64,000 nucleotides of DNA, from NCBI RefSeq assembly GCF_900103285.1, contig NZ_FNGS01000005.1:492579-556578 (forward strand), written 5' to 3'. The position numbers and the translations under genes were made by a program. This DNA is from Siphonobacter aquaeclarae. Lineage in GTDB: Bacteria; Bacteroidota; Bacteroidia; Cytophagales; Spirosomataceae. The stretch's first letter is position 1. The number at the start of each line of letters is the position of its first letter. The notes beneath the pieces are model-generated. The model saw nothing but the letters and a program-made list of their open reading frames with translations, was not told the DNA's origin and ran no database searches. Below are positions 2,860-34,826 of the stretch, one piece after another.

Positions 2860-4863
2860 ATGAACGAACCCAGCTTATTCGTGCCGGACGTGTTTTCCGG
2901 CACCGACTATTGTGATTCGCTGACGGCTTATTCCCGGCGGAAAACCATTCCTGTGCGGATTGGAGACCTCTGGCTTGGATCTGATTACCCTATCCGGGTG
3001 CAGTCGATGACGACGATCGATACGATGGATACCTCAGGTTCCGTCGAACAATCGATCCGCATGATCGAAGCCGGCTGTGAATTGGTACGAATTACAGCCC
3101 CCAGCGTCAAGGAAGCGCAGAACCTGGATAATATCCGCAAAGAACTGCGGCGTCGCGGCTACAACACGCCGATCTGCGCCGATATACACTTTACACCGAA
3201 TGCGGCCGAACTGGCGGCGCGGCTGGTCGAAAAAGTACGGATCAATCCCGGTAACTACGCTGACAAGAAGCGTTTTGAAGTACTTGAGTATACCGAATCG
3301 GAATACCAGGCTGAAATACAGCGCATCCGGGACAAGTTTCTCCCGCTGGTGAAGATTTGCAAGGAGTACGGAACCGCTATGCGGATCGGGACGAACCACG
3401 GTTCGCTGTCAGACCGTATTCTCAGCCGGTACGGAGATACGCCGAACGGCATGGTGGAATCGGCACTGGAGTTTCTCCGGATTTGTGAAGACGAAGGATA
3501 TACCAACCTCGTCATCTCGATGAAGTCCTCCAATCCTCAAGTAATGGTCGAGGCCTACCGCCTTCTCGCCAAGCGGCTGAAAGACGAAAATCTCCAGCCC
3601 TACCCGCTGCACCTCGGCGTAACCGAGGCCGGCGAGGGAGAGGACGGTCGCGTGAAGTCTGCGATGGGTATCGGTACCTTGCTGGAAGACGGGCTGGGCG
3701 ATACCATTCGCGTAAGCCTGACGGAAGATCCGGAGTTCGAAATTCCGGTTGCTCAGGCGCTGGTACGCCGGTACGATGACCGCGCTTCAAAAGCCACGCC
3801 TATTCCTGCGATCGACGCGTCTCCGGTGAACCCCTTCGCGTACCACAGGCGGGAAACGGCCGAAGTCGGGAATTTCGGCGGAAAGAACGTCCCCCGGATT
3901 ATCGCCGATTTCTCTGGTATCCGTGTGCAGGAACCTACTGATTTGCAGACCATAGGTCATTTTTACCTTCCGGCGACGGACAAATGGGCCATGAACGACC
4001 TCGGCGCCGATTACCTCTATACCGGTGCGGCTGCGGTGCCGTTCATGCTGCCGAACGGGCTCAAACAAATCGTCGATTTTCAAACCTGGAAATCGATTGA
4101 TGATCAGGAACATACCTATCCTTTGCTCAACCGGGAGGAATACCTTGCGGAAGTAACAAAAGGATTTACTTCCCTCCATTTTCTCCGCCTCACTCTGGCG
4201 GAAACGGAAGGAGATATTCTCAGTTACCTGCAGGAAGATCCGCTGCTGGTGCTGGTGATTACCACCACCAATGCACACGCCATGCCGGAACTCCGGCGCC
4301 TGTTTTTCCGGCTGATCCAGAACCGGATTCACCTGCCGGTCGTCATACAGTGGGAACAGCCTTCGGCCGATTCGGATGAAAGCATGCTTTTTGCCGCGAC
4401 CGATTGTGGTGGACTGCTGGTAGACGGTCTCGGTGACGGACTATTGCTTCGCCCGTTTGCCGGACAGGAAGACGGACAGGTTCGCCTGCTCAATTCCCTC
4501 GGTTTCGGCATCCTGCAGGCTGCGCGGACACGGATGAGCAAAACGGAATACATCTCCTGCCCTTCCTGCGGCCGGACGCTGTTTGACCTCCAGGAAACCA
4601 CTGCCCTGATCCGCAAGCGTACCGATCACCTGAAAGGCGTTAAAATCGGTATCATGGGCTGCATCGTAAACGGTCCGGGAGAAATGGCCGACGCCGATTA
4701 TGGATACGTAGGAATGGGCGTTAACAAAATTGCGCTGTACCGGGGGCAGCAGCTCGTGAAGCGTTCTGTTTCGGCCGACAAAGCCCTCGACGAACTCATT
4801 GAACTCATGCGGGAAGACGGTGTCTGGCGGGAGCCGGAGGCCGCTGCCCTTCAACAAGCATAA
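2860..4863 (+). CDS. ispG: 4-hydroxy-3-methylbut-2-en-1-yl diphosphate synthase (IspG/GcpE), long Bacteroidota form
   Basis: Penultimate enzyme of the MEP isoprenoid pathway; reductively converts MEcPP to HMBPP with a [4Fe-4S] cluster. The N-terminal TIM-barrel begins near residue 25 (PVRIGD, then RVQSMTTIDTMD) and contains ADIHFTP, RINPGNY and GTNHGSLSDR. The cluster ligands are C567 and C570 (CPSCG) and C601 (MGCIVNGPGE) in the C-terminal domain. At 667 residues it is much longer than the roughly 370-residue E. coli enzyme; a large extra domain lies between barrel and cluster domain (about residues 290-555), as is known for Bacteroidota, chlamydial and plant-type IspG. The open frame extends upstream to 2737, but that stretch carries the promoter box and shows no family similarity. 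Three small genes follow at 2-6 bp spacing. Confidence 0.96.
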   Translation: MNEPSLFVPDVFSGTDYCDSLTAYSRRKTIPVRIGDLWLGSDYPIRVQSMTTIDTMDTSGSVEQSIRMIEAGCELVRITAPSVKEAQNLDNIRKELRRRGYNTPICADIHFTPNAAELAARLVEKVRINPGNYADKKRFEVLEYTESEYQAEIQRIRDKFLPLVKICKEYGTAMRIGTNHGSLSDRILSRYGDTPNGMVESALEFLRICEDEGYTNLVISMKSSNPQVMVEAYRLLAKRLKDENLQPYPLHLGVTEAGEGEDGRVKSAMGIGTLLEDGLGDTIRVSLTEDPEFEIPVAQALVRRYDDRASKATPIPAIDASPVNPFAYHRRETAEVGNFGGKNVPRIIADFSGIRVQEPTDLQTIGHFYLPATDKWAMNDLGADYLYTGAAAVPFMLPNGLKQIVDFQTWKSIDDQEHTYPLLNREEYLAEVTKGFTSLHFLRLTLAETEGDILSYLQEDPLLVLVITTTNAHAMPELRRLFFRLIQNRIHLPVVIQWEQPSADSDESMLFAATDCGGLLVDGLGDGLLLRPFAGQEDGQVRLLNSLGFGILQAARTRMSKTEYISCPSCGRTLFDLQETTALIRKRTDHLKGVKIGIMGCIVNGPGEMADADYGYVGMGVNKIALYRGQQLVKRSVSADKALDELIELMREDGVWREPEAAALQQA

Positions 4864-17890: not shown

Positions 17891-18379
17891 ACTCTGGGAT
17901 TGATTCTGTTTCTGAACTCGCTAAAATAGGCCTAAAATTGAACTTCCCGTCTTTTGCAGCGGGGTGTTGCCATACAAATCTGCAAAAAAATCCTCCGTCC
18001 CCGGGATGCTTCTTGGTAAAATACAATTCCGGATACCCTTGTCCTTCTCGATTCCGGTTTATGCCCTCTGAAGCAAAACAAAGTGTCCATTTCAGGACAT
18101 TCTTCAAAAAAAGAGCTTCTAATTGTTAAAATCAGTTGAAATTTTCTCCAAAATCTTCCGAAAACGTCAAATTATCTCAAAATCAAGTATTTCCGGCGAT
18201 TTCCATCTAAATAACTTTTCAACAATCATATAATTAATTGGATATTTTCAATATTTCAAAATTTATTCACGTTAAAAATGACATTTCGCCAAATAATTAT
18301 TTGGATAATTGACCAAAACCGAACTAGATTTGAATCGTCAATCGAACGAATCGTTTCATTTCTCATTTATAACAAAACC
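17891..18379. promoter_or_regulatory. Divergent regulatory region between the two glutamine synthetase genes
   Basis: A 489-bp gap that becomes very AT-rich from about 18120 to 18370. It must hold the promoters of both divergent genes and any nitrogen control sites. A small palindrome ATATT-TTC-AATAT is at 18242-18254. No TAnnTTTG box or known operator was recognised. Confidence 0.5.
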
Positions 18380-19402
18380 ATGGCAAAAGCTAAATTGGAG
18401 TATATCTGGCTCGACGGCTACAAGCCCATGCAAAGCCTCCGCAGCAAGACGAAAATCGTAAGTGATTTTTCGGGCAAACTGGAAGACCTCGAAATGTGGT
18501 CTTTTGATGGTAGTTCTACTGAGCAAGCTCCGGGCCGCTCTTCCGATTGTTTGCTTAAGCCGGTATTTGTGTGCAAGGACCCTGCCCGTCTCGGCGGCAA
18601 TGGTTGGTTGGTGATGTGCGAAGTTCTGAACGCAAACGGCACCGCCCACGAATCAAACGGTCGTGCAACGATCGATGATGACGATAACGATTTCTGGTTT
18701 GGTTTCGAGCAGGAATACTTCCTCTGGGATCCGGCCAACAACAAGCCGGTAGGCTTCCCGGTAGGCGGATATCCCGGTCCTCAGGGTCCCTACTACTGCT
18801 CAGTAGGCGCTGGCAAGGCCGTAGGCCGCGACATCGTGGAAGAGCACCTCGAGCTCTGCCTCCAGGCCGGCCTCAACGTAGAAGGTATCAACGCCGAAGT
18901 AGCGATGGGTCAGTGGGAATTTCAGGTATTTGCCAAAGGCGCCAAGCAGGCCGGCGATGAAACCTGGATCGCACGTTACCTCCTCGAGCGCATCGGCGAG
19001 AAATACAACGTATCCATCAACTGGCACTGCAAGCCCCTCGGAACGCTCGACTGGAACGGTTCAGGTATGCACGCCAACTTCTCCAATACGATTCTCCGTA
19101 CCTCCGGCAGCAAGGAAGCTTACGAGAAAATCCTCGAAGCATTCCGCCCGGTAGTGAAAGAGCACGTAGCGGTATACGGTCCGGACAACCACCTGCGCCT
19201 GACCGGCAAGCACGAAACAGCTGCTATCAACAAGTTCTCCTGGGGTATCTCCGACCGTGGCTCTTCCATCCGCGTTCCCATCGCCACGGTAGAACGCGGC
19301 TGGAAAGGATGGCTCGAAGATCGTCGCCCGAACTCCGCTGCAGATCCCTACAAGGTTGCCGCACGGATCATCAAGACCGTTAAGAGCGCTGAAGAAGTAT
19401 AA
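18380..19402 (+). CDS. Glutamine synthetase, eukaryotic-like type II (beta-grasp)
   Basis: A 340-residue glutamine synthetase of the GSII class found in eukaryotes and some bacteria. Typical signatures are EYIWLDGYKPMQSLRSKT near the start, WSFDGSSTEQAPG, FGFEQEYFLWD, YYCSVGAGKAVGRDI, GINAEVAMGQWEFQV and NKFSWGISDRGSSIRVP. The length fits GSII (about 340-370) and excludes GSI or GSIII. The ATG at 18380 follows 34 in-frame upstream codons without family similarity. It is divergent from GSIII and terminated by a hairpin at 19425. Codon use looks highly optimised (many CTC/CGT/GGC codons), suggesting strong expression. Having both classes together suggests division of work by nitrogen state, which is inference. 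Confidence 0.96.
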   Translation: MAKAKLEYIWLDGYKPMQSLRSKTKIVSDFSGKLEDLEMWSFDGSSTEQAPGRSSDCLLKPVFVCKDPARLGGNGWLVMCEVLNANGTAHESNGRATIDDDDNDFWFGFEQEYFLWDPANNKPVGFPVGGYPGPQGPYYCSVGAGKAVGRDIVEEHLELCLQAGLNVEGINAEVAMGQWEFQVFAKGAKQAGDETWIARYLLERIGEKYNVSINWHCKPLGTLDWNGSGMHANFSNTILRTSGSKEAYEKILEAFRPVVKEHVAVYGPDNHLRLTGKHETAAINKFSWGISDRGSSIRVPIATVERGWKGWLEDRRPNSAADPYKVAARIIKTVKSAEEV

Positions 19403-21332: not shown

Positions 21333-22673
21333 TTATGCCTCGATGAGATATTCGTCGTGTTGGCTGACATCGAGACCTACGCGCTCGTCTTCATCCGTTA
21401 CGCGCAGCGGCAGGATCTTGTCCGTCAGCCACAGCAGTGCGTAAGAAAGGGTGAAAGCGAAGGCAGAAACGAGTACCAGGGCGATCATGTGTGCCTTGAA
21501 GGTATCGAATGCGCCGTACGCGAGACCGTCGATAGCGACAGCGGAGTTAACCGTCTTCGTAGCGAAGATACCCGTCATGATCATACCAACCATACCGCCG
21601 ATACCGTGGCAGGGGAATACGTCAAGCGTGTCATCCAGGGTACCCTTGGCCTTCAGGTGAGCGAAGTAGTTGGAAGTGATACCGGCAACGGTTCCGATGA
21701 AGAGAGAAACCGGGATCGTTACGAAACCGGCAGCCGGCGTAATGGCTACCAGACCGACTACTGCACCGATGCAGAAACCGAGTGAAGATACTTTCTTGCC
21801 TTTGGCAGCGTCGAAGAGTACCCAGGCCAGACCGGCAGCAGCAGCTGCGAAGTTGGTCGTAGCGAAGGCCGAAACCGCAAGCGGAGAAGCACCCACAGCC
21901 GAACCGGCATTGAAACCGAACCAGCCAAACCACAGCAGCGCCGTTCCGAGGAGAACGAAAGGAATGTTTGCCGGGGGAAGGAAGTTGGCTTCCAGGTGAG
22001 ACTTACGGCGCTTCAGGTACAGCGCACCGGCGAGTGCAGCCCAACCGGCAGACATGTGTACAACAGTACCACCGGCGAAATCGAGCACGCCCAGCTTGAA
22101 GAGGAAACCTTCCGGGTGCCAGGTCATGTGTGCCAGCGGGCTGTAAACGAACATGCTGAACAGGATCATGAACAGGACGTAGCTCTTGAAGTTGATACGC
22201 TCAGCCATGGAGCCCGTTACGAGGGCCGGAGTAATGACCGCAAACTTCAGCTGGAACAGCGCGAAAAGTGCCAGGGGAATCGTCGGAGCGAGTGACCAGG
22301 GCTTTCCGTCGAGTACTCCCTGCCACATGAAGAACGTAGCGGGGTTACCGACAAAGCCGAAATCACCGATTTTGATTGAGTCTCCGAAGGCGAGGCTGAA
22401 GCCACACACCACCCAGACCACAGAGATCACGCCCATTCCGACGAAGCTCTGGAACATGGTAGAGATGACGTTTTTCGCGTTGACCATACCGCCGTAGAAA
22501 TACGCCAGACCGGGCGTCATGAGGAGGACAAACGCGGAGGCTACGATCATCCAGGCCATGTCGCCGGAATTGAGGCCTTCGGTGTTGATCGACGTCGGCA
22601 GATTGGGAACGAACGCTCCCAGAACGCTGACTGCGATCAGAATGATTAAGGGGATATACGATGGTTTTTGCAT
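21333..22673 (-). CDS. amtB: Ammonium transporter (Amt/MEP/Rh family)
   Basis: A 446-residue inner-membrane channel-like ammonium transporter with about 11 transmembrane helices. The family signature DFAGGTVVHMSAGWAALAGA is present (given in part elsewhere), with LMTPGLAYFYGGMV at the N-terminal half, the pore twin-histidine sites in the AHMTWHP and FPCHGIGGMVG regions, and AHLKAKGTLDDTLDVF near the end. The cytoplasmic tail is short (DEDERVGLDVSQHDEYLIEA). A porin gene lies 70 bp upstream on the same strand, so ammonium entry through both membranes may be encoded as one unit. No glnK/PII gene is next to it in this window, unlike the common glnK-amtB arrangement. Confidence 0.97.
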   Translation of the reverse strand: MQKPSYIPLIILIAVSVLGAFVPNLPTSINTEGLNSGDMAWMIVASAFVLLMTPGLAYFYGGMVNAKNVISTMFQSFVGMGVISVVWVVCGFSLAFGDSIKIGDFGFVGNPATFFMWQGVLDGKPWSLAPTIPLALFALFQLKFAVITPALVTGSMAERINFKSYVLFMILFSMFVYSPLAHMTWHPEGFLFKLGVLDFAGGTVVHMSAGWAALAGALYLKRRKSHLEANFLPPANIPFVLLGTALLWFGWFGFNAGSAVGASPLAVSAFATTNFAAAAAGLAWVLFDAAKGKKVSSLGFCIGAVVGLVAITPAAGFVTIPVSLFIGTVAGITSNYFAHLKAKGTLDDTLDVFPCHGIGGMVGMIMTGIFATKTVNSAVAIDGLAYGAFDTFKAHMIALVLVSAFAFTLSYALLWLTDKILPLRVTDEDERVGLDVSQHDEYLIEA

Positions 22674-28728: not shown

Positions 28729-29541
28729 TCAGCGGCAGACCCACCGGAGAAAATCGGGAAAAACTGCGCCCCAGGTTTCCGGATTATGCTGACCGCCCGA
28801 TACCTCCAGGTAGGTATAGTCTGCATCCTGCCGGTATCCCTTGGTTTGCAGCTCGCGCATGAGGTCGAGGGTATCGTCGATGGCATCGATGATACCGTTT
28901 TGGTTGCGGTCTTCCTGCTCGTCGTCTGTTCCGGCCTGAAACCAGAAACGAAGCGCCGGTTTGGCAGTGGTATTCCGGACCCGGACGTGCATAATCCGGT
29001 CGTTTTCGTCGTCATAACCCTCATCATACGCCCGGCTGCGCCACCAGAGCGATCCGGAAAAGATGCCTACTCCGGCGAAGGTGGTGTCGTGCTGCCAGCA
29101 GATATCCAGCGCCGAAAGCCCGCCGAGCGAGAACCCGGCGAAATAGCGCTTCTGCCCGTTAACTCTGTATGAATGTTCGAGATGCGGAATTAACTCATCG
29201 ATAATGAATTGCGTATAGGCGGAAGCGAGATTACCGCGACCTTTATAGTCGGGTAATCCGGCCGTGCCGTACTCCGACAGCCGCCGCTCGTTTGCATGCA
29301 CACCTACTACTACCAGCGGCGGAATTTCACCGTGGCGCATCAGCGATTCCAGACGCGCTTTCAATTGAAGACGTTCGAAATCCTGCCCGTCGTTCACCAG
29401 CAGCAGCGGATACTGCTGCGCGGACTGATCATATCCGGGAGGCAGTAAAACGGTGAGAATTACCTGCCGCTGCAAAGGCCGGGAGGCCAGGGAACCCGTT
29501 CGGGACTGAATGAAAGCGCTGTTCACGGTTCGGTGTTGCAT
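28729..29541 (-). CDS. Esterase of the alpha/beta-hydrolase D-like family with a calcium-binding-type loop
   Basis: A 270-residue alpha/beta hydrolase of the putative esterase (esterase D / enterochelin esterase-like) type. The nucleophile is S138 in GFSLGG; D206 or D207 (QAGTDDEQ) and H252 (SGGQHNPETW) fit the remaining triad positions. Residues 211-222 (DRNQNGIIDAID) form an EF-hand-like calcium loop, D-x-N-x-N-G-x-x-D-x-x-D, just after the acid residue. There is no signal peptide, so it is probably cytoplasmic. The substrate is unknown. It precedes the DUF5686 gene on the same strand with a 90-bp gap. Confidence 0.85.
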   Translation of the reverse strand: MQHRTVNSAFIQSRTGSLASRPLQRQVILTVLLPPGYDQSAQQYPLLLVNDGQDFERLQLKARLESLMRHGEIPPLVVVGVHANERRLSEYGTAGLPDYKGRGNLASAYTQFIIDELIPHLEHSYRVNGQKRYFAGFSLGGLSALDICWQHDTTFAGVGIFSGSLWWRSRAYDEGYDDENDRIMHVRVRNTTAKPALRFWFQAGTDDEQEDRNQNGIIDAIDDTLDLMRELQTKGYRQDADYTYLEVSGGQHNPETWGAVFPDFLRWVCR

Positions 29542-29762
29542 GAATAAAAGATGCCAATCTAGTAGAAAAACCTCAGACCGGACTGGTAAAAGAAAGTAAG
29601 TTACAAAAACTGTTGAAAGTTCCCAAGCCTATGCCCCCAAATAATATTTCATATGAAGGGATACTATCCCCCGAAAAATTAATTTTCTGACAAAAAACGC
29701 CGTGCATTATTTGGAGGAAATCAAAATCTCCTTAAACTTCGGAAAAAGAAACACTTCATCGG

Positions 29763-30467
29763 GTGAAAGAACAGTATACTAAGTACTACTCACACCGGCT
29801 CGGCCGGGACATTGAATTGCTCGTCTACGGACATTGGGGGTATCCTGTTCTGGTTTTCCCGACGACTATGGGTCGGTACTACGAAGCGAAGGATTTCGGA
29901 CTGGTGCAATCGGCCCGCCGGCTGGTTGACGAAGGCCGGATCAAGCTTTATTGTGTTGACTCAATCGACCGGGATTCATGGTATGCCAAACACCTCCATC
30001 CTTCCCTGCGCATCCTGAATGCCATTCAGTATGATCGTTTCCTGAACGAAGAACTTGTCCCCTGGATTCAGCAGGAGTGCAATGTCGGAAAGGTAGCGGC
30101 GGCAGGTTGCAGTTTCGGCGGCTTTCAGGCGGCCAATTTTGCCTTCAAGCATGCCGACAAAGTCTCGCATTTGTTTACAATGGGCGCTGCGTTTGATATC
30201 CGGGATTTTATGAGCGGGTATTACGACGAAAATGTCTATTTCAACAATCCGCCAGACTACCTGCCCAATGCCAACGATCCGAATCTCTGGCAAATGAAAA
30301 TCATACTTGGCAGCTGTCTTGCGGATTTCTGTAAACCGGAAACCGAGCGCCTGTCAGCTATCCTGACAGCCAAGCAGATCCCGCACTGGCTGGATATCCG
30401 ATGGCACGGCACGCACGACTGGCCTATCTGGAAAGAAATGTTTCCGGAATACCTTTCTCAAATCTGA
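29763..30467 (+). CDS. Alpha/beta-hydrolase esterase, first gene of the amide-ligase cluster
   Basis: A 234-residue cytoplasmic alpha/beta hydrolase of the putative esterase family. The nucleophile is S117 in AGCSFGGF; a C-terminal histidine in WHGTHDWPIW is the likely base. The start is a GTG at 29763, giving MKEQYTKYYSHRLGRD, which resembles the conserved N-terminus of relatives; no ATG fits. It begins a five-gene same-strand run (30 bp to the ATP-grasp gene). In this context it may release an ester, thioester or peptide product made by the downstream ligases, which is inference only. It is not closely related by eye to the esterase on the other side of the 221-bp gap. Confidence 0.85.
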   Translation: MKEQYTKYYSHRLGRDIELLVYGHWGYPVLVFPTTMGRYYEAKDFGLVQSARRLVDEGRIKLYCVDSIDRDSWYAKHLHPSLRILNAIQYDRFLNEELVPWIQQECNVGKVAAAGCSFGGFQAANFAFKHADKVSHLFTMGAAFDIRDFMSGYYDENVYFNNPPDYLPNANDPNLWQMKIILGSCLADFCKPETERLSAILTAKQIPHWLDIRWHGTHDWPIWKEMFPEYLSQI

Positions 30468-30497
30468 CCTTACTTCATTACTTCAATAGCGTTAACC

Positions 30498-31580
30498 ATG
30501 AAAAAAATCGGTATCCTCCACGGCATGGAAAACACCTTTCCGGCCGCCTTTGTCGAACGTGTCAACCAGCTCGCGCCGGACGGTATTGTAGCCGAACCGG
30601 TCAGTCTCGCGAAAGTGGTTCAGGGAGAACCTTCCGATTATGCCGTTGTCATTGACCGTATTTCCCAGGACGTCCCGTTTTACAGGGCGTGGCTCAAAAA
30701 CGCCGCGCTGACGGGTACGGCTGTCATCAATAACCCCTTCTGGTGGAGCGCCGACGAGAAGTTTTTCAATAACTGCCTTGCCACGAAGGTGGGCGTACCG
30801 GTTCCGAATACGGTGCTTCTTCCGTCAAAAGAACGCCCCGACGATACCCGCGAAACGTCTTTCCGTAACCTGGCGATGATGCCGTGGGATGAGATTTTTG
30901 AATACATCGGTTTTCCCGCCTTCATGAAACCCCATTCGGGCGGCGGCTGGAAAAACGTATACAAAGTCGACAATGCCGACGAGCTCTTCCAGGCCTACAA
31001 CGAAACCGGGCAGTTAGTCATGTTGCTGCAGGAGGCGATCGACTTTGAGTCCTATTACCGTTGCTACTGCATCGGCGGCGAGCATGTCCGGATTATGCCG
31101 TATGAGCCCCGTAACCCGCATCACCTGCGTTACGAAGCGAATTTTCCCCATAATCCGGAGTTGCTGAAGACGATGGAAGACTACGTTCTCCGCCTCAATA
31201 AAGCCCTCGGTTATGACTTCAATACTGTTGAATTCGCCGTGCGTAACGGCGTGCCCATCGCGATCGATTTCTGCAATCCGGCGCCCGATGCTGATATTCA
31301 TTCGGTAGGAAAAGAGAACTTTGAATGGGTAGTCGATACCGCTGCGCTCTTCGCCATTGAAAAGGCAAAAAACCACGTGGAAGGCAAAATGAACCTGACT
31401 TGGGGGCAGTTTACCCGCGTCGGAGCGATGAACCTTCCGCTGGAAAACCTGAGCGTTGGTACGGTCGTCTCTAAAAAAGAAGTGGCAGAACCCGTCAAAA
31501 AAGCGGCGCCCGCGAAGAAAGCAGCGGCGCCTAAAGCCGAAGCAGCACCGAAAAAGCCGGCCGGAAAAGCGAAAAAGTAA
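30498..31580 (+). CDS. ATP-grasp ligase with Lys/Ala/Pro-rich C-terminal tail
   Basis: A 360-residue ATP-grasp protein, the superfamily that joins a carboxylate to an amine or thiol through an acyl-phosphate. Visible ATP-site features: K144 in FMKPHSGGGW with the glycine-rich loop, E179 in LLQEAIDF, and metal-binding E245 (NTVEFAV), D257 and N260 (IDFCNPAPD). The N-terminal domain (1-110) is a pre-ATP-grasp-type fold. Residues 328-360 form a basic tail of Lys, Ala and Pro (repeats of the AAPAKKAA kind), resembling histone-H1-like tails; it could bind nucleic acid or another polyanion. The gene lies 30 bp after the hydrolase and 28 bp before the carboxylate-amine ligase. Substrate unknown. Confidence 0.86.
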   Translation: MKKIGILHGMENTFPAAFVERVNQLAPDGIVAEPVSLAKVVQGEPSDYAVVIDRISQDVPFYRAWLKNAALTGTAVINNPFWWSADEKFFNNCLATKVGVPVPNTVLLPSKERPDDTRETSFRNLAMMPWDEIFEYIGFPAFMKPHSGGGWKNVYKVDNADELFQAYNETGQLVMLLQEAIDFESYYRCYCIGGEHVRIMPYEPRNPHHLRYEANFPHNPELLKTMEDYVLRLNKALGYDFNTVEFAVRNGVPIAIDFCNPAPDADIHSVGKENFEWVVDTAALFAIEKAKNHVEGKMNLTWGQFTRVGAMNLPLENLSVGTVVSKKEVAEPVKKAAPAKKAAAPKAEAAPKKPAGKAKK

Positions 31581-31608
31581 GTCCCCGTTTCATCTAACCT
31601 GAAGAGCC

Positions 31609-32712
31609 ATGCCGGTATTTACGCTCGGTATTGAAGAGGAGTTCCAGACCATTGATCCGGACTCGCGAGAACTGCGTTCGCACATGAGCAAGATTGTGGA
31701 CGGAGGAAAGATCATTCTGCAGGAACGCGTGAAAGCGGAAATGCACCAGGCTGTTGTAGAAGTCGGGACCAATATCTGCACCAATATTCACGAAGCCCGG
31801 GAGGAAGTAACCTTTCTGCGCCGGGAAATCATGGAGCTGGCCGACAAGCAGAACCTCCGCATCGCGGCGGCAGGTACCCATCCCTTTTCGGACTGGGTCG
31901 ATCAGCTCATTACACCGAACCCGCGGTACGACCAGCTGATCAGCGAAATGCGGGATGTAGCCCGCTCCAACCTGATTTTCGGGCTGCATGTTCACGTGGG
32001 TATTCCCAGCCGGAACGAAGGCCTCCAGATCATGAACGCGGTCCGGTACTTCCTGCCGCATATCTATGCGCTCAGCACCAACTCGCCGTTCTGGTGCGGG
32101 CGGGATACGGGTTTCAAAAGCTACCGTTCCAAAGTATTCGACAAATTTCCGCGGACGGGTATTCCCGAATACTTCAACTCCGCCAATGAGTACGACGAGT
32201 ACGTCAACCTCCTCATCAAAACCAATTGCATCGACGACGGGAAGAAAATCTGGTGGGACATCCGGCTTCACCCCCATTTCGATACCGTTGAGTTCCGCAT
32301 CTGCGACATTCCGATGCGGGTGGATGAGACGATTTGCCTCGCCGCGCTCATGCAGGCGCTGGTCGTCAAGATCTACAAGCTGATGAAACAGAATCTCAAC
32401 TTCCGGATGTACCGAAAGGCCCTCATCAGCGAAAACAAATGGCGGGCGGCCCGGTACGGTATCTCCGGAAAACTGATCGATTTCGGGCGTCAGGAGGAAG
32501 TTTCCTATACCACGCTGGCGCAGGAACTGCTGGACTTTATCGACGATGTTGTCGACGAACTCGGCAGCCGGAAAGAGGTGGAATACATCAATACAATTTT
32601 GCGCATGGGTACCGGAGCCGACCGTCAGCTGGCCGTCTGGGAACAAACCCGTGACATGAAAAAAGTAGTCGATTTCATCGTTCAGGAAACCAGCCACGGA
32701 ATACGTTCATAG
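31609..32712 (+). CDS. Carboxylate-amine ligase (glutamate-cysteine ligase type 2, YbdK-like)
   Basis: A 367-residue member of the GCS2/YbdK family, relatives of glutamate-cysteine ligase on the glutamine synthetase-like fold. The conserved active-site segments are present: LGIEEEFQTID at the N-terminus, AVVEVGTNIC, AAGTHPFSDW, GLHVHVGIP with the paired histidines, and the LHPHFDTVEFRICD segment. It should form an amide between a carboxylate (often the gamma-carboxylate of Glu) and an amine using ATP. The E. coli homolog has only weak glutamate-cysteine ligase activity, so glutathione synthesis is not implied. It sits between the ATP-grasp gene and the amidotransferase gene. Confidence 0.93.
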   Translation: MPVFTLGIEEEFQTIDPDSRELRSHMSKIVDGGKIILQERVKAEMHQAVVEVGTNICTNIHEAREEVTFLRREIMELADKQNLRIAAAGTHPFSDWVDQLITPNPRYDQLISEMRDVARSNLIFGLHVHVGIPSRNEGLQIMNAVRYFLPHIYALSTNSPFWCGRDTGFKSYRSKVFDKFPRTGIPEYFNSANEYDEYVNLLIKTNCIDDGKKIWWDIRLHPHFDTVEFRICDIPMRVDETICLAALMQALVVKIYKLMKQNLNFRMYRKALISENKWRAARYGISGKLIDFGRQEEVSYTTLAQELLDFIDDVVDELGSRKEVEYINTILRMGTGADRQLAVWEQTRDMKKVVDFIVQETSHGIRS

Positions 32713-32765
32713 CCCTGCCTTTGACGGGAAAGTACCTCCCGACCGGATTACCCCGGCCGATTGTG

Positions 32766-32773
32766 TATCTTTG
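32766..32773 (+). promoter_or_regulatory. Candidate internal -7 box TATCTTTG upstream of the amidotransferase gene
   Basis: TATCTTTG fits TAnnTTTG and lies 62 bp before the ATG at 32836, inside the 123-bp gap of the cluster. It would let the last two genes be transcribed apart from the first three. It lies just after an alternative upstream ORF start (32761), arguing against that start. Confidence 0.45.
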
Positions 32774-32835
32774 CCGCCTGTTTTCAGTACAACGAGAATC
32801 CGTCCGCTGTCGGGACACAGCTGACGCCGCACCCA

Positions 32836-33642
32836 ATGAAGCAACTTAAATTAGCCGTTCTGGACATGTACGACGGCGTTCCCAACGAGGGAATGCGTTG
32901 TATCCGCCAGCTTATTCAGGAGTTTTCGGACGAAATCGGAGGTTGTGAAGTCGCAACGTTCGACGTCCGGGGCAAACAGGAAATACCCGCTGCGGAAGAC
33001 TATGATATCTTTCTGTCGACCGGCGGCCCCGGCGACCCGCTGGATACGGGAACCTGGGGAACTGCCTATTTCGCTTTGATCGACCGTATTTTCGAAATCA
33101 ACGACTCGGGTCAGGGCCGGAAGTTTCTCTTCCTGATCTGCCATTCGTTTCAAATGGTCAGCCACCACCTCGGCATTGGCCGGGTGACGCGCCGGCGATC
33201 TACCAGCTTCGGCACCTTTCCGATTCACAAAACGGCAAACGGTTATGACGAGCCGTATTTTGACCTCCTCCCCGATCCGTTCTGGGCGGTAGATTCCCGT
33301 GATTTTCAGATCATCAGCGCCGACCTCGAACAAATCGACGCCATCGGCGCGAAGGTACTCTGCCGCGAAAAGATCCGCCCGCATGTACCGCTGGAGCGGG
33401 CTGTGATGGCCGTTCGGTTTTCCCGGGAAGTATTCGGCACGCAGTTTCACCCCGAAGCCGACGCCGTCGGGATGCTCCACTATTTTCAGCAGCCTGAAAA
33501 GCAAAAGCAGATCATCCACGAACACGGGTATGAGAAGTACCAGCAGATGCTGAATACCCTCAACGACCCGGATAAGATTCTCCTCACCGAATCTGTCATT
33601 ATTCCGACCTTCCTCCGGGACGCTTATCAGAAACTCTCATGA
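32836..33642 (+). CDS. Class I glutamine amidotransferase-like protein
   Basis: A 268-residue protein of the class I glutamine amidotransferase (Triad GATase) fold. The nucleophile C102 is in LFLICHSFQM, with H205 and E207 in GTQFHPEAD completing a full Cys-His-Glu triad; the oxyanion strand STGGPGDPL is at 61-69. The nucleophile elbow reads ICHSFQ instead of the usual GxCxGxQ, as in a sub-branch of GMP-synthase-like amidotransferases. Residues 210-268 form an extra helical tail. It may supply ammonia to, or hydrolyse a gamma-glutamyl bond made by, the neighbouring ligases (inference). Its last 4 bp overlap the next gene (ATGA), so the two are coupled. Confidence 0.9.
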   Translation: MKQLKLAVLDMYDGVPNEGMRCIRQLIQEFSDEIGGCEVATFDVRGKQEIPAAEDYDIFLSTGGPGDPLDTGTWGTAYFALIDRIFEINDSGQGRKFLFLICHSFQMVSHHLGIGRVTRRRSTSFGTFPIHKTANGYDEPYFDLLPDPFWAVDSRDFQIISADLEQIDAIGAKVLCREKIRPHVPLERAVMAVRFSREVFGTQFHPEADAVGMLHYFQQPEKQKQIIHEHGYEKYQQMLNTLNDPDKILLTESVIIPTFLRDAYQKLS

Positions 33643-34826
33643 TCGATTCCATTCGTCAGGCATACAATCAGTCCTTTTCAGAGGCCGTTTATGTGGATTT
33701 TCTGCAGAAAATCCGGGAAGACTGGCCCGGACAGCTCGACTTCCGGGTAGCGGAGTCGCCGGTATTCATTCCGGCAGCGCTACGGGAAAAACTGATAACA
33801 GCCGGCGAATCGTTTATCGATACCATCACAGCCTCCGATTTCCGCATGAAAACGGAGGCTGCCATTCCGGACGGCCAGCGGGTACCCGGCGAAAACGGCC
33901 ATACCAGCTTTCTGGCTATTGATTTTGCCGTCTGTCGCGACGAAGCCGGGGATTTGACTCCGCAACTGATTGAACTTCAGGGATTTCCTTCTGTATTTGC
34001 TTTTCAGGGATATCTGTCTGCACTGTTTGCCGAACGGTATCCGGCCATACCGGAGTCATTGCGGTGGCATTTTGCAGCGGATGATTACGCAGCTGAACTG
34101 AAGAAGGTACTGCTTGGGGATGAAGCTCCGGAACACTGTATTCTGCTCGAAATATTCCCCGAAAAACAGAAAACCCGAATCGACTTTGCGGTAACGGAAG
34201 CGCTGACAGGTATTCGTCCGGTTTGCTATACACAAATTCAAAAGGAAGGCCGTAACCTGTTTTATGACCGGGACGGCATTCGGACGCCGATCCGCCGGAT
34301 TTATAACCGGCTGATTTTTGATGACTTGCAAAGCTATCCGGGGCTGCAAACCGACTTTCAGCTGACCGACGATATTGACGTTACCTGGGTAGGTCATCCC
34401 AATTGGTTTTTCCGGATTTCGAAGTACATCCTGCCGTTGCTGAAGTCCCCCTACGTACCCGACACGCGGTATCTGTCTGATTTCGGAGGAAAATTCCCGG
34501 AAGACCTGGACAACTATGTGCTGAAGCCCCTCTTCAGCTTCGCAGGTATGGGCGTAGACCTGCATCCCACGGCGGAGAGCCTCGCGGCGATCACCGATCC
34601 GCGACATTATATCCTTCAGAAAAAAGTACAGTATGAGCCTGTGATTCAGGCGCCTGACGGCGGCGTAAAATGCGAAATCCGCCTGCTGTATACCTGGCCG
34701 GAAGGAGACGCCCGTCCGAAACTACTGACGAGCCTCAGCCGACTGAGCCGTGGTGAAATGATCGGAGTCCGGTACAACAAGGATTTTTCCTGGGTGGGCG
34801 CTTCGGCGTGTTTTTTCGAGGTTTAG
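33639..34826 (+). CDS. Divergent ATP-grasp-like protein, last gene of the amide-ligase cluster
   Basis: A 395-residue protein that I do not recognise as a named family. Segments consistent with an ATP-grasp fold are a lysine followed by a glycine-containing loop (YVLKPLFSFAGMGVD), a hinge-like YILQKKVQYEPVI, and an acidic strand GVKCEIRLLYTW; upstream, LIELQGFPS and RIYNRLIFDD also recur in such proteins. No signal peptide or membrane helix is present. It is coupled to the amidotransferase by a 4-bp overlap. Co-occurrence with an ATP-grasp, a GCS2 ligase and an amidotransferase suggests it adds another residue to the same product. The fold call is tentative. Confidence 0.72.
   Translation: MIDSIRQAYNQSFSEAVYVDFLQKIREDWPGQLDFRVAESPVFIPAALREKLITAGESFIDTITASDFRMKTEAAIPDGQRVPGENGHTSFLAIDFAVCRDEAGDLTPQLIELQGFPSVFAFQGYLSALFAERYPAIPESLRWHFAADDYAAELKKVLLGDEAPEHCILLEIFPEKQKTRIDFAVTEALTGIRPVCYTQIQKEGRNLFYDRDGIRTPIRRIYNRLIFDDLQSYPGLQTDFQLTDDIDVTWVGHPNWFFRISKYILPLLKSPYVPDTRYLSDFGGKFPEDLDNYVLKPLFSFAGMGVDLHPTAESLAAITDPRHYILQKKVQYEPVIQAPDGGVKCEIRLLYTWPEGDARPKLLTSLSRLSRGEMIGVRYNKDFSWVGASACFFEV

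Follow-up and report, generated by a model that had tools for sequence, protein, structure and literature searches.

A predicted amidoligase cluster of Bacteroidota with a conventional and a circularly permuted ATP-grasp

A stretch of 64,000 nucleotides from Siphonobacter aquaeclarae (the window) carries a cluster of genes for three ligase folds, an amidotransferase-like protein and two esterase-like hydrolases. With moderate confidence we propose that this cluster directs a pathway, independent of non-ribosomal peptide synthetases (NRPSs), to a small oligopeptide or a peptide-amine amide via stepwise ATP-dependent ligation. The role in amide or peptide synthesis suggested by an earlier note on this DNA is supported, since it fits the three ligase folds. 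Five of the genes, designated EST, GRASP1, GCS2, GAT and GRASP2, form the same-strand run at 29763-34826 that this note had described, with gaps, from open reading frame (ORF) coordinates, of 30, 28, 123 and -4 bp, the last being an ATGA overlap at 33639-33642. The five genes stand as they had been placed; a conserved divergent gene, EST2, had been omitted from that extent. The constant part of the system is a conventional ATP-grasp together with a permuted one, with GAT and PF00756 esterases often nearby.

The two ATP-grasp proteins

GRASP2 (33639-34826, forward strand, 395 aa) gave no Pfam or NCBIfam match up to an E value of 0.1. An AlphaFold model built from 24 orthologues had a mean predicted local distance difference test (pLDDT) score of 90.2, and its comparison with the PDB by Foldseek returned 32 matches with E < 1e-3 and template modelling (TM) scores of 0.48-0.63 to the query, which we take to be permuted ATP-grasps. 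By title, these matches comprise glutathione, homoglutathione, trypanothione and glutathionylspermidine synthetase-like proteins, YgiC and Cp1B. Specifically, the putative glutathionylspermidine synthase 3n6x was matched with an E value of 6e-15, human glutathione synthetase with 1.6e-14, Cp1B with 1.4e-10 and E. coli YgiC with 2.2e-10, and further matches were found to yeast, plant and trypanosome synthetases and to nematode glutathione-synthetase-like effectors.

The order of motifs in GRASP2, in which Asp95 and Glu112-x-Gln114 stand ahead of a Lys296-Pro loop followed by Glu346/Arg348, fits a circular permutation. Each of Asp95, Glu112, Gln114, Arg224, Lys296, Glu346 and Arg348 is kept in 60 of 61 sequences, and the remaining one, from a split gene, has a gap there. 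By eye, we take Asp95, Glu112 and Gln114 to be equivalent to the metal ligands D316, E330 and N332 of glutathionylspermidine synthetase (GspS), with Gln where the GspS/YgiC family presumably has Asn. On the basis of its model, GRASP2 is predicted to be an ATP-grasp with the circularly permuted fold of glutathione synthetase, GspS and YgiC. The last protein of the run is thus a second ATP-grasp-like ligase, as had been surmised, of the permuted type, and its family exceeds none of the cut-offs of the Pfam and NCBIfam libraries searched.

By sequence profile, YgiC (E 0.0066) was the sole PDB relative of GRASP2 with E < 1, and GSP_synth (PF03738), the only recurrent weak Pfam match, was reached below its cut-off by 20 of the 24 members (E up to 1, best E 4.7e-4; 11.8 bits for the window protein, under the gathering cut-off of 29.3). 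Like YgiC/YjfC, glutathionylspermidine synthetase and 3n6x (Mfla_0391), GRASP2 has the permuted fold together with this weak match; it differs from them in falling below the PF03738 cut-off and in having SFAG for SREG in the KP loop. These likenesses would fit a peptide-polyamine conjugate, for which GRASP2, like YgiC/YjfC, would join a polyamine to the carboxylate of a peptide and GAT would serve as a PuuD-like gamma-glutamyl hydrolase. A class-III aminotransferase gene also speaks for such a product: it adjoins the cluster in the window and lies within two ORFs of it in 12 of 80 named loci (collected via GRASP1 among the matches listed), and the ornithine and putrescine aminotransferase families were matched below their cut-offs, among the matches listed. 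However, every match that points to polyamines is below its curated cut-off, the aminotransferase is found in some loci only and may simply reflect synteny, and glutathione synthetases outscore YgiC in the fold search, so that we regard a polyamine conjugate as quite unlikely.

GRASP1 (30498-31580, forward strand, 360 aa) reaches ATP-grasp families in Pfam and NCBIfam only below their cut-offs, with 31.1 bits to the RimK family TIGR00768 (curated cut-off 143.4) and, for the window protein, 20.4 bits to the R2K clade PF18299 (gathering cut-off 26.2). Its AlphaFold model had a pLDDT of 74.6 with a disordered tail, and Foldseek matched the core to D-Ala-D-Ala ligase (E 4e-13) and to LysX/ArgX and RimK-like structures (target-TM up to 0.76). 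Lys144, Arg188, Glu203, Glu245, Asp257 and Asn260 are kept in 98 of 98 sequences; the modelled fold places GRASP1 in the ATP-grasp superfamily, Lys being assigned by eye as the putative ATP-binding residue and the acidic residues and Asn as putative metal ligands. Conservation of the ATP-grasp active residues, on which the earlier reading relied, was thereby confirmed for both ligases. Three genomes, G045, G124 and G197 (loci L212, L213 and L211), have divergent, low-scoring GRASP1 relatives and neither permuted ATP-grasp; these relatives possibly have a different function.

Residue counts here and below pool the named loci and the relatives of the window genome, a few genomes possibly being counted twice. 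The alignments comprised 17 of 19 GRASP1 sequences (A1; 18 loci and the window), all 24 GRASP2 (A2), 17 of 21 GCS2 (A3), 17 of 20 GAT (A4, the split GAT of L045 having been excluded beforehand), 16 of 18 EST (A5) and 18 of 65 EST2 sequences (A7).

The C-terminal tail of GRASP1 (31455-31577 in the window) is rich in Lys, Ala and Pro and histone-H1-like, of very variable length, and short or missing in some orthologues. This basic tail, the closeness of GRASP1 to LysX/ArgX and RimK as well as to D-Ala-D-Ala ligases, and weak R2K_2 matches in 10 of 17 GRASP1 members would all be in keeping with protein modification, where GRASP1 and the permuted ATP-grasp would add amino acids or a peptide to a protein target and GAT and the esterases would remove them. 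The R2K_2 clade is predicted to modify proteins (PMC4431377). However, the tail is missing in the shortest members, GRASP2 resembles small-molecule ligases in the fold search, and the 25 gene families most frequent in the 80 named loci, counted from ORFs of at least 70 aa, included nothing recognisable as a small carrier protein. Overall we judge protein modification rather unlikely, though still a serious alternative.

Co-occurrence of the cluster genes

The distribution of the genes was analysed in 39 genomes (the window genome and 38 relatives) and in a sample of 198 Bacteroidota genomes, with a presence threshold of E <= 1e-30 for GAT, EST, EST2 and X (a further permuted ATP-grasp described below) and of E <= 1e-3 for the other genes. 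Before counting, G085 (a 24-residue match) was removed from GRASP2, G091 (E 3e-5) from GRASP1, G017 from GRASP1 among the relatives, and G174 from X (363 bits versus at least 796).

Among the relatives, GRASP2 was present in 24 of the 39 genomes, GRASP1 in the same 24 (a weak 25th match having been discarded) and GCS2 in 23 of these. The order EST-GRASP1-GCS2-GAT-GRASP2 on one strand was found in 17 of the 23 relatives' loci around GRASP2, the GAT match of L045 being in two pieces, and in the other six some of the genes lie elsewhere or beyond the stretch. Across the 198 genomes, GRASP2 was detected in 60, GRASP1 in 72, GCS2 in 62, GAT in 50, EST in 81, EST2 in 18 and X in 11. GRASP1 and GRASP2 occur together in 58 genomes (Fisher p 7e-34, uncorrected for relatedness). 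When GRASP2 and X are taken together, a permuted ATP-grasp is found in 71 genomes, 69 of which have GRASP1; conversely, 69 of the 72 genomes with GRASP1 have a permuted ATP-grasp. The expectation that these genes would co-occur in other genomes is thus borne out among both the relatives and the phylum. A permuted ATP-grasp is also present in all 50 GAT genomes, and all 18 EST2 genomes have GRASP1, GAT and GRASP2; EST is broader, 11 of its 81 genomes being without GRASP1. Relatedness is answered in part by the breakdown into families, 12 of which include both genomes with GRASP1 and a permuted ATP-grasp and genomes with neither, and three of these mixed families (f18, f20 and f44) each add one genome with a single gene of the two.

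In the 58 genomes with both genes, GRASP1 and GRASP2 lie within 6 kb in 34, farther apart on one contig in four and on different contigs in 20. In the single-contig genomes G081, G097 and G071 the two are truly far apart, with GRASP1, GCS2 and GRASP2 at 0.48, 0.74 and 1.23 Mb in G081, and GRASP1-GCS2 at 1.58 Mb and GRASP2 at 4.77 Mb in G071. Because the pair is also unlinked on such contigs, inheritance as one locus does not explain its co-occurrence. Among GRASP2 genomes, 38 of 54 have GRASP1 and GCS2 no more than 6 kb apart. A fixed GAT-GRASP2 pair was rejected because just 27 of 39 genomes keep these two within that distance.

GCS2 was undetected in four of the 60 GRASP2 genomes and in seven of the 11 X genomes, and GAT was absent from 21 of the 60 GRASP2 genomes (E up to 1e-30). 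Since GCS2 and GAT are each missing in some GRASP2 genomes, the core consists of the two ATP-grasps. The 'gamma-glutamyl-like' product put forward in the earlier note was not borne out, GCS2 not being obligatory.

X is a protein of about 450 aa whose gene, by coordinates, stands between those for GRASP1 and GAT in all 11 genomes that have it, and these are without GRASP2; the gene content of X loci was taken from tblastn. It matches CP_ATPgrasp_2 (PF14403) above the cut-off of 32 in L198 (37.3) and below it in L199 (23.7). PF14403 proteins are part of permuted ATP-grasp/alpha-E/transglutaminase (Anbu-type) operons. The X clusters differ from these in holding GRASP1, GAT and esterases, and neither alpha-E nor transglutaminase was found among ten neighbouring proteins scanned (nine from L198, L199, L201 and L205 and one from L206; two matched nothing). 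Of eight X loci, five (L198, L199, L201, L202 and L205) encode, after GAT, a relative of protein Y from L198, and the two Y proteins scanned both match PF00756. A third ATP-grasp gene follows the X-type cluster in two loci of the same genus, at L198:11136-12311 (ATP-grasp_4) and L201:10658-11833.

In the 198 genomes each ligase gene is usually matched once per genome. No relatives of GRASP2 were found in viral contigs, no match to GRASP1 or GRASP2 was found in plasmids, and on these grounds an origin in mobile elements was rejected. The single match per genome and the lack of plasmid or viral relatives are more in keeping with a housekeeping product than with an antibiotic.

In the 80 named loci, the EST2 family was found in 64, GCS2 in 68, EST and GRASP2 in 36 each and GAT in 35; the commonest arrangements were EST2-GRASP1-GCS2 (24) and the full six-gene set (22). 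ORF calling in these loci was greedy by length and missed genes in some (L200 and L215 yielded none), and true gene presence may exceed these counts because some loci are short contigs. All 80 are Bacteroidota by title except L188 ('uncultured bacterium') and L163, titled Williamsia, whose gene order is like that of Chitinophagaceae loci and which is perhaps a mislabelled metagenome-assembled genome.

Partner enzymes, transcription and neighbouring genes

GCS2 (31609-32712, forward strand, 367 aa; PF04107, E 8e-65) is a YbdK-type carboxylate-amine ligase, scoring 564.6 bits against the equivalog cut-off of 371 for NF010039 (PRK13515), and by profile its best structural template in the PDB is 1r8g (YbdK; E 2.5e-57). 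Glu9-Glu11, Glu51, His127 and His129 of its GIEEEF and HVHVG motifs, residues which we take to be catalytic, are found in 89 of 90 sequences, a split-gene gap being the exception. It differs from E. coli YbdK in that its gene lies here within a multi-ligase cluster. YbdK has only weak glutamate-cysteine ligase activity.

The combination of GCS2 with a glutathione-synthetase fold follows the logic of glutathione synthesis, and the window genome has no match to GshB (TIGR01380). A glutathione-like thiol could then be envisaged, for which GCS2 would make gamma-glutamyl-Cys, GRASP2 would add a third residue and EST would act like S-formylglutathione hydrolase. However, BshC of the bacillithiol pathway is matched in 196 of the 198 genomes (192 above cut-off), the window genome included, and a replacement thiol is not needed when BshC is near-universal in the sample. 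Moreover, GCS2 is missing from the GRASP2 and X genomes counted above, and the two genomes with GshB above its curated cut-off (G113 and G231) both carry the cluster and BshC. At a threshold of at least 188 bits, 12 genomes have GshB-like matches and three of these have the two-ligase core, a share that does not differ from that in the remaining genomes (Fisher p 0.55). We consider a thiol of this kind very improbable, and a bacillithiol-replacement thiol was rejected as the leading reading on the BshC count and on GshB being above cut-off in only two of 198 genomes.

GAT (32836-33642, forward strand, 268 aa) is a class-I glutamine amidotransferase-like protein that matches PF00117 with 24.9 bits (cut-off 22.8). 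It starts with the ATG at 32836, a longer TTG alternative being located at 32761. The complete Cys-His-Glu triad claimed previously is present as Cys102-His205-Glu207 in all 55 sequences, a set in which at least Arundinibacter was counted twice. Its nucleophile elbow reads LICHSFQ in the window and LICHS or similar in 17 A4 sequences, and GAT of eight X-type loci has ICHS[FY] and FHPEAD.

EST (29763-30467, forward strand, 234 aa, GTG start) is a PF00756 alpha/beta hydrolase (E 6e-9). Its Ser117-Asp188-His218 triad, assigned by eye, is kept in 53 (Ser), 54 (Asp) and 54 (His) of 55 sequences. EST2 (28729-29541, reverse strand, 270 aa) is a divergently transcribed PF00756 esterase (E 7e-32) with the nucleophile motif GFSLGG (Ser138, in 65 of 65 sequences) and His252. 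An Asp/Asn-rich loop at about residues 207-223, in which Asp211 and Asp219 are kept in 64 of 65 sequences (one gap), resembles, in our estimation, an EF-hand calcium loop. By a simple hydropathy rule, eight of 64 EST2 relatives have a hydrophobic N-terminal stretch, and some may be exported. The identities proposed at the outset for the hydrolase, the GCS2/YbdK ligase and the amidotransferase were all upheld by family matches (PF00756, NF010039 and PF00117) above cut-offs.

The 123-bp gap between GCS2 and GAT (32713-32835, forward strand) contains, as the earlier note had indicated, a promoter-like box, which was located at 32766-32773 (TATCTTTG). This box matches TAnnTTTG, the Bacteroidota minus-7 consensus; the window holds 31 such matches on both strands, a density that predicts about 0.03 in 123 bp of a single strand. 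All six same-genus loci examined, the window among them, have an ATCTTT core at the corresponding place, with the full TAnnTTTG there in the window only and GATCTTT, without the first T of the consensus, in the other five. In some loci (L168, L181 and L184) GAT-GRASP2 lies apart from GRASP1-GCS2. Together, this separation and the box suggest two putative transcription modules. No TAnnTTTG box was found in the 300 bp upstream of EST. The 221-bp intergenic region between EST2 and EST (29542-29762) presumably holds promoters for both directions. Predicted counts of sigma-70-type promoters and intrinsic terminators were not above those of shuffles.

Across the 80 named loci, several gene families are found repeatedly no more than two ORFs away from the cluster, each family having been identified from one scanned member: a TonB-receptor-like outer-membrane protein (20 loci, upstream of EST2 in Chitinophagaceae-type loci such as L140, L141 and L148), the class-III aminotransferase (12), a LuxC-like acyl-CoA reductase (11), an extracytoplasmic-function (ECF)-type sigma factor (11), a beta-barrel-like protein (10) and RibBA (10). 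The TonB-like protein and the sigma factor occur mostly in Chitinophagaceae-type loci and the aminotransferase and LuxC-like protein mostly in Spirosomataceae-type ones, and because they are split between locus groups these neighbours look like ordinary synteny; in those lineages they may have an uptake or regulatory role.

Other genes are inserted within the cluster: an S33-like alpha/beta hydrolase family between EST and GRASP1 (L137, L146, L154 and L162, one scanned), an Amidohydro_3 family before GAT (L156, L175 and L192, one scanned) and, between GCS2 and GRASP2 in the usual place of GAT, an M29-family aminopeptidase-like gene (L210:6348-7367). These peptide- or amide-type hydrolases favour a peptide or amide pathway. 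A Uma2-type putative endonuclease family is found between GRASP1 and GCS2 in four loci (L129, L143, L158 and L163, one of the four scanned).

Elsewhere in the window, an ammonium transporter gene (21333-22673, reverse strand) and a glutamine synthetase gene (18278-19402, forward strand) lie approximately 7 kb and 10 kb upstream of EST, and the ammonium transporter family is found in 11 of the 80 named loci. Their proximity may hint at nitrogen metabolism or may be due to chance.

Proposed pathway and its meaning

Enzymes of the ATP-grasp and GCS2 types convert a carboxylate to an acyl phosphate and then condense it with an amine. YgiC and YjfC are said to be peptide-spermidine ligases, as reportedly named in the title of Pederick et al. 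2023. The fungal enzyme Cp1B of the E-64 pathway forms a pseudodipeptide with release of ADP and acts with a second, unrelated ligase and no NRPS (PMC12568646). Because the nearest characterised permuted enzymes make small peptides or peptide-amines, we infer a stepwise assembly of a small peptide here. GRASP2 shares its fold with Cp1B and with eukaryotic glutathione and homoglutathione synthetases (E down to 1.4e-10 and 1.6e-14, respectively), at 10-16 % identity, and the cluster differs from these systems in also encoding GCS2, GAT, two esterases and an ATP-grasp of the conventional kind.

The data show which genes are present and in what order, their folds, the conservation of key residues and the co-occurrence; beyond this, we propose the following order of reactions, substrates and enzyme roles for a small-molecule product. 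GRASP1 would link two building blocks resembling amino acids by way of an acyl phosphate, and GRASP2 would activate the free carboxylate of the resulting intermediate and condense it with a second amine. Where present, GCS2 would supply or cap with a (gamma-)glutamyl-type amide before or between the GRASP steps. GAT might feed ammonia to the permuted ligase to give a primary amide or, as a cysteine hydrolase, hydrolyse a glutamyl amide, while EST and EST2 may hydrolyse an ester or thioester form of the substrate or product for activation, release or recycling.

Several points weigh against this proposal. Two genomes, G181 and G191, have GRASP2 without a detected GRASP1, and in three, G045, G124 and G197, GRASP1 was found but no permuted ATP-grasp. 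GCS2 and GAT are each lacking in part of the genomes that keep both ATP-grasps, and no single reaction scheme covers all genomes because each is optional; in 12 of 39 genomes, GAT lies elsewhere than GRASP2 or on another contig. A protein substrate is also conceivable, since RimK and LysX act on proteins. In GRASP2, Ala302 (Ser in seven of 61 sequences) occupies the position of the Glu of the YgiC KPIFSREG motif, a residue that presumably binds metal. The GAT elbow LICHS departs from GxCxG, the canonical nucleophile elbow of glutaminases, and without the usual glycines a glutaminase role for GAT is not secure. In L047 of the relative G024, EST (4014-4721) is without the catalytic Ser (GIDFGA) and His while the other cluster genes are retained, and is likely, judging from its sequence, to be an inactive or repurposed hydrolase. 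Given this EST, the atypical GAT elbow and the optional GCS2 and GAT, the scheme must in part vary among lineages. Lastly, no substrate or product was indicated by any analysis.

Iyer et al. 2009 reportedly predicted amidoligase operons with ATP-grasp, COG2170 (GCS2), GATase and alpha/beta hydrolase neighbourhoods; the permuted fold, the exchange of X and EST2 may already figure there. No paper on this cluster was found among the literature matches listed, judged by title or start of abstract, most subscription papers being outside the scope of the search. We class the cluster as a predicted amidoligase pathway distinguished by a permuted ATP-grasp family above no cut-off, the exchange of X for GRASP2, and a concerted phylum-wide distribution.

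More tentatively, this could be a core pathway of Bacteroidota in which a conventional ATP-grasp and one of two exchangeable permuted ATP-grasps would make a housekeeping peptide-like cofactor, a storage amide or a protein tag, present or missing as a unit in many families and found even where the genes are scattered. That another permuted ATP-grasp occupies this gene setting in some genomes indicates which step matters. The two-ligase core is present in 69 of the 198 sampled genomes, approximately one third, and is kept or missing largely as a unit; this concerted distribution suggests a metabolite or modification of general use.

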